DNA of 64,000 nt from assembly GCF_004349355.1 (NCBI RefSeq), contig NZ_SMFK01000016.1, positions 1 through 64,000 on the forward strand, written 5' to 3'. How positions within the stretch are numbered: the first letter of the stretch is position 1; every line of letters begins with the position of its first letter. A model generated the notes under the pieces. That model searched no databases, had not been told where the DNA came from, and was given only the letters and a program-made list of their open reading frames with translations. A program made the translations under genes and the position numbers. Of this stretch, positions 4,487-8,716 are shown one piece after another. Origin of the DNA: Flavobacterium cellulosilyticum. GTDB lineage: Bacteria; Bacteroidota; Bacteroidia; Flavobacteriales; Flavobacteriaceae.

Positions 4487-5218
4487 ATGACACTATTAGA
4501 AACAAATACCATTGGAGAATATGTAGCTCAAGATTTTAGAACAGCAGCAATTTTCACAAAATACGGAATCGATTTTTGTTGTCGAGGAAACAGAACATTA
4601 CAAGAAGTTTGTACAAAAAACGAACTTAATGAATCCCATTTATTAGCTGAGATCAATGCAGTTTTAACTTCAAAAAATGATACTGGAATAGATTTCAATT
4701 CTTGGTCGTTGGATTTATTGATTGATTATATTGAGAAAACGCACCACCGATATGTTGAAGAAAAAGCTCCAATTATAATTCAATTTCTAGATAAATTATG
4801 TAGTGTGCACGGAAGCAACCATCCTGAATTGTTTGAAGTTTACGAACTTTTTAAAGGAAGCGCAGGAGAATTGGCATTGCACATGAAAAAAGAGGAGTTG
4901 ATTTTATTTCCTTTCATTAGAAAAATGATGGGTGCAACAAAATCACATGAAGCAATTAACCAACCTCAATTTGGAACAGTAGACAATCCTATTGCTACGA
5001 TGATGGACGAACATGATAATGAAGGACTACGATTTAGAACCATAGCGGCTTTGACAAACAATTATACACTACCAGAAGATGCTTGTAACACTTTTAAAGT
5101 GACCTATGCCATGTTAGAAGAATTTGAACAAGACTTACACAAACACATTCACTTAGAAAACAATATTGTGTTTCCTAAATCAAAAGCATTAGAGAAATTT
5201 TTCTCTTTCGAGAAATAA
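4487..5218 (+). CDS. ric: Iron-sulfur cluster repair di-iron protein (RIC/ScdA/YtfE family)
   Basis: Cytoplasmic di-iron protein that helps repair Fe-S clusters damaged by nitric oxide or oxidants. 243 residues, normal length. The N-terminal DUF542 (ScdA_N) domain carries the vicinal cysteines C31-C32 in YGIDFCCRGN. The hemerythrin-like domain follows, with likely iron ligands H86/H87 (THHRY), H132 and E136 (LHMKKEE), H176 (DEHDNEG), and H220 and E224 (HIHLE). All ligand positions of the E. coli YtfE pattern appear to be present. The gene heads the run ric-nrdD-nrdG. Divergent from it is the dead DUF438 gene, another hemerythrin-domain member. Two FNR-type boxes in the shared upstream region suggest low-oxygen or NO control. 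Confidence 0.93.
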   Translation: MTLLETNTIGEYVAQDFRTAAIFTKYGIDFCCRGNRTLQEVCTKNELNESHLLAEINAVLTSKNDTGIDFNSWSLDLLIDYIEKTHHRYVEEKAPIIIQFLDKLCSVHGSNHPELFEVYELFKGSAGELALHMKKEELILFPFIRKMMGATKSHEAINQPQFGTVDNPIATMMDEHDNEGLRFRTIAALTNNYTLPEDACNTFKVTYAMLEEFEQDLHKHIHLENNIVFPKSKALEKFFSFEK

Positions 5219-5257: not shown

Positions 5258-7372
5258 ATGGAAAAATACGTTATCAAAAGGAATGGAGATTACAAACCGT
5301 TTGAAAGTTTTAAAATTGAAGATGCCATTGCACGAAGTTTTGAAAGTACTACTATAGTATTTGATAAGAGTGTTTTTGAAGATGTGATACAAGGATTGCA
5401 AGTAAAAGAAACTTGGGCTGTCGAAGAAATTCAAGATTTAATTGAAAAAAGTCTCTTCGAAAAACAGTATTTTGAAGTAATGCGATCATTTATGTTGTTT
5501 CGTCACACTCGAAAATTACAAAGGGAACATGTTGAAGGGTTAAATGATGACACCACTTATGTAGACAGTTCCCAAACTATTGCTGAATATATTGAGCAAA
5601 CAGATTGGAGAATTAATGCCAATGCCAATACTTCTTATTCTAATGCTGGTTTGGTAAATAACGTTGCCGGAAAAATTATTGCTAATTATTGGCTTGATCG
5701 AGTTTACACAAAAGAAGAAGGATATGCTCACAGAAACGGAGATATTCACATTCACGATTTAGATTGTCTAACCGGTTATTGTGCTGGATGGAGTTTGCGA
5801 GTTTTGCTTAACGAAGGTTTTAATGGAATTCGTGGTCGTGTCGAAAGCAAACCTCCTTCCCATTTCAGGGAAGCTTTGGGACAAATGGCCAATTTCTTAG
5901 GAATATTACAAAGTGAATGGGCCGGTGCACAAGCGTTCAGCTCTTTCGACACTTATTTGGCACCTTATGTTTTCAAGGATGATTTATCTTTTCCAGATGT
6001 TTTGAAAGCCATTCGTACTTTTGTTTATAATTTGAATGTTCCAGCTCGTTGGGGGCAATCACCATTTACTAATATCACTTTGGATTGGGTAGTTCCTGAA
6101 GATTTAAAAACTCAAATTCCAACTAAGAATGACCATCATTTTTTCGAAAATAATAGCAATCCAAATTTATTGGTTCGAGCAAAAGAACGCGGGGTTTCAA
6201 AAGTAACGGATTTGCGTTACGAACATTTCCAGAAAGAAATGAATCTAATTAACAAAGCCTATTATACCGTAATGACCGAAGGCGATGCCAACGGCCAACC
6301 TTTCACCTTCCCAATTCCAACAGTGAATATTACCGAAGAATTTGATTGGGACGGTGAAAACACCGATTTACTATTCGAAAATACGGCAAAAATAGGTTCG
6401 TCTTACTTCCAAAATTTTATAGGAAGCCAATACAAATTAGACGAAGATGGAAAGAAAATAGAAAATGAAGAAGCCTATAAACCCAATGCTGTCCGGAGTA
6501 TGTGTTGTCGTTTGCAATTGGATTTACGAGAATTATTAAAACGTGGAAACGGGCTTTTTGGAAGTGCTGAAATGACAGGAAGCATAGGCGTAGTAACGAT
6601 AAACATGGCGCGTTTAGGATACTTATATAAAGGAAACCGCGGGGAATTATTCAAACAATTAGACAAACTTTTATATATTTCTAAATCTACATTAGAGAAA
6701 AAAAGAGTGTTCATACAGGAAATGTATGATCGTGGATTGTACCCATATACAAAACGTTATCTACAACATTTTAGAAATCACTTTTCGACCATTGGCGTTA
6801 ATGGAATGAACGAAATGATTGTAAATTTTAGCGAAAACACAGACACCGTAACTTCATCAACTGGGATTGAATTTACTTCGGATATTTTGGAACATATTCG
6901 AAATAGGATGAAAGAATTCCAAGAAGAAACTGGCAATTTATACAATTTGGAAGCTACTCCGGCTGAAGGAACTACGTACCGTTTTGCCAAGGAAGATAAA
7001 AAACGCTTTCCTAATATTTTGCAAGCTGGACAAGATGAAAATATTTATTATACGAACAGTTCTCAAATTCCAGTTGACCATACCGAAGATCCTTATGAAG
7101 CTTTACTGTTGCAAGATGAATTGCAATGCAAATATACGGGAGGAACAGTTTTGCATTTGTATATGAGTGAAAAAATCAGCTCACCAGAAGCATGTAAGCA
7201 GTTTGTTAAAAAAGTGCTTACTAATTTCAGATTGCCTTATATAACTGTAACGCCCGTATTTAGTGTTTGTCCTGTTCATGGTTACTTGAATGGAGAACAC
7301 GAATATTGTCCAAAATGTGATGATGTTATAATCGAAAAGTCTAGAAACACAGTAAACGACTTAGTCGTTTAA
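5258..7372 (+). CDS. nrdD: Anaerobic (class III) ribonucleoside-triphosphate reductase, catalytic barrel without glycyl-radical tail
   Basis: Reduces ribonucleoside triphosphates to deoxyribonucleotides without oxygen. 704 residues. An ATP-cone opens the protein (KYVIKRNGDYKPFESFKIED), followed by the NRDD barrel with GDIHIHDLDCLTGYCAGWSL, NVPARWGQSPFTNITLDW, MCCRLQLDLRELL and GSIGVVTINMARLGYL. The C-terminal zinc site is C671, H674, C684 and C687 (CPVHGYL...CPKC). Family members continue after this site with the glycyl-radical loop, but here translation stops 17 residues later at TAA 7370-7372. The loop is encoded separately at 7422. The gene is 39 bases downstream of ric and probably cotranscribed with it. 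Confidence 0.95.
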   Translation: MEKYVIKRNGDYKPFESFKIEDAIARSFESTTIVFDKSVFEDVIQGLQVKETWAVEEIQDLIEKSLFEKQYFEVMRSFMLFRHTRKLQREHVEGLNDDTTYVDSSQTIAEYIEQTDWRINANANTSYSNAGLVNNVAGKIIANYWLDRVYTKEEGYAHRNGDIHIHDLDCLTGYCAGWSLRVLLNEGFNGIRGRVESKPPSHFREALGQMANFLGILQSEWAGAQAFSSFDTYLAPYVFKDDLSFPDVLKAIRTFVYNLNVPARWGQSPFTNITLDWVVPEDLKTQIPTKNDHHFFENNSNPNLLVRAKERGVSKVTDLRYEHFQKEMNLINKAYYTVMTEGDANGQPFTFPIPTVNITEEFDWDGENTDLLFENTAKIGSSYFQNFIGSQYKLDEDGKKIENEEAYKPNAVRSMCCRLQLDLRELLKRGNGLFGSAEMTGSIGVVTINMARLGYLYKGNRGELFKQLDKLLYISKSTLEKKRVFIQEMYDRGLYPYTKRYLQHFRNHFSTIGVNGMNEMIVNFSENTDTVTSSTGIEFTSDILEHIRNRMKEFQEETGNLYNLEATPAEGTTYRFAKEDKKRFPNILQAGQDENIYYTNSSQIPVDHTEDPYEALLLQDELQCKYTGGTVLHLYMSEKISSPEACKQFVKKVLTNFRLPYITVTPVFSVCPVHGYLNGEHEYCPKCDDVIIEKSRNTVNDLVV

Positions 7373-7421
7373 CATATTTATAAAAAATGTAATCACATAT
7401 AATCTTAAAAACTATTCCTTT

Positions 7422-7586
7422 ATGAAAACAGAAAACAATCCTATTCTAGAAAAAAATGCGCATTTAAGAACCAAATGTCTTGTTTACACACGTGTAATGG
7501 GTTATCACAGACCCGTAGAAAGTTTTAACATTGGAAAAAAAGGAGAACACAAACAACGAACACATTTCAGCGAAGGCACCTATTAG
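7422..7586 (+). CDS. Separate small ORF carrying the NrdD glycyl-radical motif
   Basis: 54 codons from ATG 7422 to TAG 7584-7586. The peptide contains RTKCLVYTRVMGYHRPVESF and then NIGKKGEHKQRTHFSEG. This lines up with the extreme C-terminus of class III reductases, where RV-x-GY holds the radical glycine (here Gly27) and a Gly-Lys-rich tail follows. It starts 49 bases after the nrdD stop in a different reading frame, with no nrdD-like residues in the gap, so the break falls cleanly between the zinc site and the radical loop. The 3' part overlaps the likely start of nrdG by 56 bases, which suggests translational coupling. It is likely a detached radical subunit, comparable in idea to YfiD for pyruvate formate-lyase. 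It could also be a broken but still expressed tail. Confidence 0.8.
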   Translation: MKTENNPILEKNAHLRTKCLVYTRVMGYHRPVESFNIGKKGEHKQRTHFSEGTY

Positions 7587-8259
7587 TAGACCTATTTATA
7601 GTATAACCCCTTTCACTTTATTGGATTATCCGCATAACTCAGCTTGCATACTTTGGTTTGCAGGCTGCAATATGCGCTGTCTTTATTGCTATAACCCCGA
7701 AATTGTTCTTGGAAAAGGTCGTGTTTCAAATGAGGAAACGATACGCTTCTTGCAATCCAGACAAGGCTTACTCGACGCAGTAGTTTTTAGCGGAGGAGAA
7801 TGTGTCTTGCATAAAAACATAATTCCGTTGATCGAAAAGGTCAAAGAAATGGGTTTAAAAGTAAAAATTGACACCAACGGAAGTTCCCCTGATATTCTAA
7901 AACAATTGCTGGATAAAAACCAAATTGATTATATTGCTTTAGATTATAAAGCTCCCCAATCAAAATTTCAAAACATTACACAATCTGATTTGTATGATTC
8001 TTTTGAAAAATCATTAGAATTGATTTTAGAATATCAAATTGATTTTGAAGTAAGAACCACCTATCACTCTGATTTAATAACAGAAGAGGATTTAATAGAG
8101 ATGGTTGCTTTTTTAGAAAGCAAAAATTATGTTGGCAAGTATTACATTCAATTTTTCAAAAACAATGTCAACACAATTAGTAAACTGGAACGTTCAATAA
8201 ATAAAATAGATCACGAAAAATTATCAACCCCAACTATTAAAGTCATTTTAAGAGAGTGA
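7531..8259 (+). CDS. nrdG: Anaerobic ribonucleotide reductase activase, radical SAM
   Basis: Generates the glycyl radical on NrdD using S-adenosylmethionine and a [4Fe-4S] cluster. The cluster motif CX3CX2C is CNMRCLYC (C46, C50, C53 from the TTG start), in the context SACILWFAGCNMRCLYCYNP. VVFSGGECVLHK gives the SAM-binding GGE motif, and VKIDTNGSSPDIL follows. It is 242 residues if started at TTG 7531, inside the radical-motif ORF. There is no ATG before the conserved SITPFTLLDYP, so a non-ATG start is needed; its exact position is uncertain and ribosome binding may depend on translation of the upstream ORF. The NrdG2-like length of about 230 residues supports this start region. Confidence 0.9.
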   Translation: MEKKENTNNEHISAKAPISRPIYSITPFTLLDYPHNSACILWFAGCNMRCLYCYNPEIVLGKGRVSNEETIRFLQSRQGLLDAVVFSGGECVLHKNIIPLIEKVKEMGLKVKIDTNGSSPDILKQLLDKNQIDYIALDYKAPQSKFQNITQSDLYDSFEKSLELILEYQIDFEVRTTYHSDLITEEDLIEMVAFLESKNYVGKYYIQFFKNNVNTISKLERSINKIDHEKLSTPTIKVILRE

Positions 8260-8282: not shown

Positions 8283-8716
8283 ATGTTTTCAAAAACCTGT
8301 GAATACGGAATACGTGTCTCTTTTATATAGCTGCAGAATCGCAGAAAGGCAATAGAGTGGGATTGTAAGATATTGCCAAAAAGATGGATTCTCTGGAGGC
8401 TTTTACGGCAAAATTTCTACAAATTCTTGCTCGAAACCAAATTATTCATTCCATTAAAGGTGTAGGTGGCGGATTTGAAATTCCAAAGGAAACATTGAGT
8501 CAAATCAAACTTGTTGAAATTGTATTGGCAATAGATGGAGATGTGGTTTTTACAGGTTGCGGACTTGGGCTTACTTATTGCTCCGGTGACCATCCATGTC
8601 CAGCTCACGAAAAGTTCAAAGCAATACGTAGTGAATTGGCTTTAATGCTAGAAAACACTACTTTAGAAGAACTCGCATTAGGAATAAAATCAGGTGAAAA
8701 TTTTTTGAAGTATTAA
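8283..8716 (+). pseudogene. Broken Rrf2-family regulator with three-cysteine cluster motif
   Basis: From ATG 8283 the frame reads MFSKTCEYGIRVSFI, the Rrf2 N-terminus, then meets TAG at 8328. One base is missing in the T run near 8321-8324. The shifted frame continues IAAESQKGNRVGL, hits TAA at 8366, then runs MDSLEAFTAKFLQILARNQI, IHSIKGVGGGFEIPKE and TGCGLGLTYCSGDHPCPAHE to the stop at 8716. The last segment has three cysteines placed as [2Fe-2S] ligands in NsrR/IscR-like proteins. The DNA-binding winged helix is destroyed; a 110-codon tail from ATG 8384 remains open but lacks it. The position after nrdG suggests it once controlled this NO/anaerobic block. Confidence 0.88.

Follow-up and report, generated by a model that had tools for sequence, protein, structure and literature searches.

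Class III ribonucleotide reductase in Flavobacterium with its predicted glycyl-radical loop encoded as a separate small protein

Oxygen attacks radical glycines. The validated spare parts for enzymes that carry such a residue are only YfiD and Y06I, both of which belong with pyruvate formate-lyase (PFL), though others may exist (PMC8683613, in its available part). Among class III ribonucleotide reductases (RNRs), the glycyl radical domain of P. copri NrdD consists of a zinc site, a buried glycine loop and a tail, and it is found either ordered or wholly disordered, according to the accessible text of PMC11226230. In the enzyme described in the available part of PMC12662201, the domain is ordered whichever nucleotide is bound, and activation involves its flipping out of the core. 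To judge from this ordering and flipping-out, a cut that parts the zinc site from the loop would fall inside a moving unit.

The locus considered here has exactly such a cut. It lies in a window of 64,000 nucleotides, the whole stretch of Flavobacterium cellulosilyticum DNA that was analysed (NZ_SMFK01000016.1, positions 1 to 64,000).

Two reading frames under one family profile

The features of the locus are collected in Table 1. The nrdD chain contains no radical glycine loop: its TAA stop occupies positions 7370-7372, and the protein ends 17 residues beyond C687, the last cysteine of the zinc site. The loop is found instead on a separate open reading frame, termed GRP below, which begins with the ATG at 7422 in a frame different from that of nrdD and overlaps nrdG by 56 nt. 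An earlier sequence-only reading had placed the nrdD stop just past C671/H674/C684/C687 and the RVMGY motif, with Gly27, on its own 54-codon frame 49 bases downstream and overlapping nrdG; reading-frame analysis and a residue check bear out both statements. The ScdA/RIC gene, nrdD, GRP and nrdG2 all lie on the plus strand. No intron, intein or homing endonuclease was found between the two pieces, the 49 bp gap being devoid of genes, and a search for promoter-like patterns gave no match.

Table 1. Positions of the split nrdD locus and its parts within the window
Feature	Position	Strand	Basis and remarks
ScdA/RIC-type protein with hemerythrin domain, conserved upstream neighbour	4487..5218	+	PF04405, PF01814
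nrdD core: ATP-cone, barrel and zinc site	5258..7372	+	704 aa; ORF, Pfam, NCBIfam
ATP-cone (activity regulation)	5264..5515	+	PF03477, E 4.7e-15, residues 3-86
Finger-loop motif M415-C416-C417-R418, double-cysteine MCCR type	6500..6511	+	Sequence; motif classes as in the available part of PMC9669993
Zinc site C671, H674, C684, C687	7268..7318	+	Residues checked; zinc role predicted from family
Gap from nrdD stop to GRP start, 49 bp	7373..7421	.	Length and frame differ among relatives
GRP, stand-alone glycyl-radical peptide, 54 aa, 6.4 kDa	7422..7586	+	ORF; PF13597 positions 531-562
Gly27 codon, predicted radical glycine of RVMGY	7500..7502	+	Sequence; radical role from family knowledge
nrdG2 activase (radical SAM)	7531..8259	+	TIGR02495, E 5.4e-59; PF04055; start codon uncertain

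Both chains fall within a single family. The NrdD chain covers positions 2-531 of the 562 in the Pfam NRDD profile (PF13597, 541 bits) and scores 1069 bits against PRK08270 (NCBIfam) and 426 bits against TIGR02487, while GRP matches positions 531-562 of the same profile (E 7.9e-7; 28.5 bits, cut-off 26.2). The assignment of the 54-aa frame is beyond chance, given this E value and the complementary coverage, in which the two proteins jointly span one family profile over its length. Judged by the features of a class III RNR, the locus has an NRDD barrel above the family cut-off, the finger-loop cysteine motif (M415-CCR is invariant across 27 aligned sequences) and an NrdG-type activase partner. 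What it lacks is a loop with the radical glycine as the C-terminal part of the NrdD chain; that loop is encoded by a separate ORF. According to section 2.5 of PMC9669993, in the part available, MCCR enzymes with the methionine appear equipped for formate or thioredoxin as reductant.

GRP is present in a single copy in the window genome, which also has one match to PF02867, the family of class I/II large subunits. No PF01228 (Gly_radical) protein that might substitute for it was found in that genome by a search that was positive in 3 of 14 control genomes. Membership of GRP itself in the GrcA/YfiD family was considered and rejected, as PF13597 is its sole match at E up to 1 and PF01228 is not matched. 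A GRP profile found no hit in the PDB at E up to 10, and the AlphaFold model of the NrdD chain is poor, with a mean pLDDT of 62.

Downstream of nrdG, at 8283-8716 of the window, an Rrf2-type regulator gene is disrupted near its start by stops and a frame change; the gene is open in 10 of 13 relatives checked.

Conservation of the split in the genus and beyond

The simplest account of such a locus would be a nrdD gene broken by a frameshift or stop, with GRP as its debris, in which case relatives should carry an uninterrupted gene and the split should be peculiar to this strain. The genus does not have that pattern. NrdD of the window type occurs in 71 of 199 genus genomes (E up to 1e-50) and a GRP match in 72; all 71 fall within the 72, and in the remaining genome (G046) GRP lies close to the end of a contig, at bases 42-182. 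Every genus relative examined is split, and the peptide that the sequence-only reading had proposed to look for turned up in all 71 NrdD-bearing genomes. Among 73 GRP matches the 30 best, one of them the window itself, were inspected at the locus, and all 30 have GRP as its own short ORF with RVMGY.

A scan of named loci, in which the best 80 of 532 stretches were retained, gave the same picture. GRP is a short ORF in all of these best 80, although in one metagenome contig (L124) its frame ends early, after GKK. All of these best 80 retain NrdG, and 71 of them have RIC. NrdD is present in the fetched DNA of 78; it was not found in that of the other two (L128, L143), where GRP lies at most 100 bases from the locus start. 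All 78 measurable loci of these best 80 are split, with the order NrdD-GRP-NrdG kept. The nrdD-GRP gap runs from -23 to +287 nt and the relative frames number 41, 26 and 11 among the 78; gap and frame thus drift freely across loci whereas the GRP peptide stays conserved. GRP is under purifying selection, with a pN/pS of 0.058 over 99 distinct 36-codon segments, a figure to which the roughly 15 codons that overlap nrdG add constraint. These segments were chosen by a motif that includes the glycine, whose invariance there is uninformative; the 30 RVMGY loci, by contrast, came from a tblastn-type search.

The spacing of the genes bears on a second account, in which the two ORFs are joined by programmed frameshifting, readthrough or an intron to give an ordinary NrdD chain. 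In 25 of the 78 loci (from the best 80 of 532) the start of GRP overlaps the end of nrdD, and all 25 share a single frame. This constant frame resembles the product of a frameshift, as a broken gene would have it, and one +1 shift could join the two ORFs at every overlapping locus. Against joining, the other 53 of the 78 have positive gaps of 12-287 nt and occupy all three frames (26, 16 and 11 loci), and the open frames of GRP are short, hence stops lie between. The window's own gap of 49 bp is below the size of any known self-splicing intron. Joining by frameshift or readthrough is accordingly rejected for the gapped loci, not for the overlapping ones, and as a general explanation it is improbable. 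Because the 25 overlaps share one frame while the 53 other loci occupy all three, the sequences suggest an overlapping ancestor whose genes were later drawn apart.

Two side observations concern the same loci. In four of them (L013, L104, L136, L185) a second copy of the nrdD end, zinc site included, stands between nrdD and GRP. Metagenome bins titled Lentimicrobium, Klebsiella and Bifidobacterium (L118, L128, L145) contain a Flavobacterium-type locus and are likely mislabelled or mixed.

Outside the genus the window type of NrdD becomes rare. Some NrdD match (E up to 0.001) was found in 57 of 299 family-level genomes, the window type in only five, the window included; nrdD and GRP are close in four of the five and about 600 nt apart in the fifth (L033). 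Many of the remaining family matches are a distant NrdD type or an ATP-cone alone, and in two of the distant type (L040, L052) the radical loop is read in the same chain. Within the class Bacteroidia, GRP is found in 11 of 395 genomes from seven families, always as a short frame (56-85 aa), and the cores beside these GRPs stop ahead of the loop. At the level of the phylum, 21 of 395 genomes, and no control genome, pass the PRK08270 cut-off. A single fused chain is present in 11 of the 21, all outside Bacteroidia, and the other ten are split.

The split thus extends to other families of Bacteroidia, and it is also found in Sulfuricurvum and on plasmids of Pseudomonadota. This recurrence in other phyla, the purifying selection on GRP and the retention of NrdG in all of the best 80 of 532 named loci make a broken gene hardly credible, and that account is rejected on conservation.

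Plasmid records matching GRP number 28 and those matching the Cupriavidus necator core 27. Among the 17 opened, 12 have their own GRP gene beside an NrdD core, three are fused (Actinomyces oris, Acidiphilium multivorum and Geoalkalibacter), and two, from Allochromatium tepidum and A. vinosum, carry a lone GRP and are not among the 27 core-matching records. In two of the 12, L284 and L270, which come from Thiothrix and from one copy on a Bradyrhizobium plasmid, the NrdD core next to a normal GRP is interrupted or lacks annotation. In RefSeq the small protein already goes by a name, "nrdD, anaerobic ribonucleoside-triphosphate reductase".

Of 189 loci in which NrdD was matched, 39 entered a first tree and 32 a second. 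All split cores used form one group, supported at 100/98 and 100/100 in the trees, with two fused ones, those of Acidiphilium and Actinomyces, and this fused pair is placed among the split Pseudomonadota. The topology would fit either one split followed by re-fusion or two splits. A single clade of all split rows is not rejected (AU p 0.129), and the program flags long branches.

Lone glycyl-radical peptides on viruses

A scan of viral contigs gave 58 loci, of which 48 full records were searched with PF13597; the other 10 were dropped, their loop having been missed by the motif. GRP is matched alone in 44 of the 48, though none of the viral records is rated 90% complete, so that the absence of a core is weak evidence. 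Two of the 44 have an internal stop (G1250, G1251) and a third (G1249) has its match on a 166-aa frame. One further record (G1223) has no PF13597 match at the threshold used. The remaining three also match the NrdD core: L225 and L253 are plainly split, and in L241 a 1273-aa frame holds the core in pieces, with a stop within the last match. Eleven positions are invariant across the 37 distinct lone segments (R, R, V, M, G, Y, N, G, K, E, R), several of which had been pre-selected by the scan patterns and the motif.

Neighbouring genes were scanned in 25 records. A lysis-class PHROG (holin, endolysin, amidase or spanin) lies near the lone GRP in 13 of them, a proportion to be read as a lead and not a rate, since the neighbours to be scanned were hand-picked. 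The spanin match is weak in L234, and the best match in L223 and L231 is a tail lysozyme. Of the others, six have head, tail or packaging genes only, one a primase, four phage families of unknown function and one nothing. Phage contigs with a lone GRP near holin or endolysin genes include L219, L216, L226, L213 and L232; in the first two GRP sits between holin and endolysin. The ANMV-1 archaeal virus (L287, 2680-3114) encodes a 144-aa protein with an NrdD C-terminal domain, and gave no core hit.

A lone GRP is most easily understood if it works on a host protein. GRP matches phrog_4132, a PHROG family to which no function has been assigned, and a detachable radical subunit, if real, would suggest one for these phage ORFs. 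A broader and more tentative proposal, somewhat short of an even chance, treats the glycyl-radical loop of class III RNR as a cartridge that is exchangeable and traded: hosts would run a two-chain enzyme and replace any cartridge killed by oxygen, and the lone cartridges of phages and plasmids, frequently placed in the lysis or late region, would serve during infection to maintain or take over anaerobic dNTP synthesis in the host. A replaceable radical cartridge, if real, would be new for class III RNR.

A putative two-chain enzyme and its relation to known systems

Taken together, the sequences point to an obligate two-chain class III RNR with the glycyl radical on a small subunit activated by NrdG, a reading to which we give a probability of about 0.87. 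NrdD would bind the nucleotides and carry the ATP-cone, the zinc site and the active-site cysteines, and the 54-aa GRP would bring the radical glycine, probably Gly27. NrdG would generate the radical on GRP, which may be free at that stage or already docked next to the zinc site; the loop of GRP would then lie in the barrel of NrdD and, in an active complex, the finger-loop cysteine would receive the radical by the route that one-chain enzymes use. Because the target of oxygen is the radical glycine, only the 6-kDa peptide, which might be exchanged, would be lost to damage, and the 81-kDa catalytic chain would be reusable.

The sequence-only reading had proposed that the radical is delivered in trans, as YfiD does for PFL. 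Delivery in trans is strongly supported by the conserved split, the co-occurrence, the purifying selection, the one-chain relatives and the lone GRPs, and GRP would act in this way on a partner that lacks a usable glycine; since fused relatives exist, the two parts form one enzyme elsewhere. The comparison with YfiD holds for mechanism and fails on role, YfiD being a spare and GRP here the only source of the glycine. The literature searched yielded no report of GRP detachment or exchange. Nor did it describe class III RNRs in split form, a weak negative as most subscription papers lay outside its coverage.

A third account would place the radical on another glycine of NrdD, such as that of an HGY near the zinc site, and leave GRP as a dispensable spare or regulator. 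It draws on C. necator H16, whose plasmid pHG1 carries a split set of NrdD (676 aa, 76.2 kDa, without a radical loop), GRP (66 aa) and NrdG. A 1999 paper on C. necator reportedly described a 76.2-kDa NrdD and placed the radical at Gly650. By our residue check, position 650 holds the glycine of HGY, within the zinc site; fused relatives with an RVxGY loop have this glycine as well, and GRP and NrdD strictly co-occur, both of which make the account a long shot. If the radical subunit is detachable, the radical position in C. necator merits a second look. In favour of the two-chain enzyme, NrdDG is reported to be essential for complete denitrification in C. necator H16, and that of C. metallidurans is listed as Rmet_5137 plus Rmet_5139 (PMC2864759, available part); the skipped tag is presumably GRP.

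Were the radical subunit detachable, this would explain how facultative bacteria afford a class III RNR, and NrdG activation could be studied on a 6-kDa substrate.

Several described systems resemble the window in part. The nrdDG of C. necator pHG1 belongs to the same split family (NrdD, small protein, NrdG), whereas only NrdD and NrdG are named in the available part of its literature, as in the pHG1 table (PMC3019208). The class II RNR NrdJa/NrdJb likewise consists of two chains, but it is divided elsewhere and has no glycyl radical (PMC9669993, in part). A different kind of split is seen in huge gut phages, where nrdD lies in four fragments; the accessible text gives RNA splicing evidence for the split genes of these phages, though not at one nrdD joint (PMC12363816).

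The one-chain NrdD proteins of E. coli, T4, T. maritima and P. copri (8p23, 4coi, 1h78) are alike in the NRDD barrel and finger-loop cysteine, and share the zinc site, an RVxGY-type loop, the NrdG partner and, in most, the ATP-cone. In contrast, the window chain ends past the zinc site with the glycine loop on a second protein, and its finger loop is MCCR where the others have MGCR or SCCR (PMC9669993, available part). YfiD/GrcA and T4 Y06I of PFL are small glycyl-radical proteins that act in trans on a larger enzyme, as GRP is predicted to do, and both kinds have cellular and phage versions; a detachable GRP would be the first spare-part-like protein outside PFL, a possibility left open in the available text of PMC8683613. 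YfiD/GrcA belongs to another family, since GRP has no PF01228 match, and the enzyme that YfiD rescues after cleavage by oxygen normally has a glycine of its own, whereas GRP would be the normal and only source.
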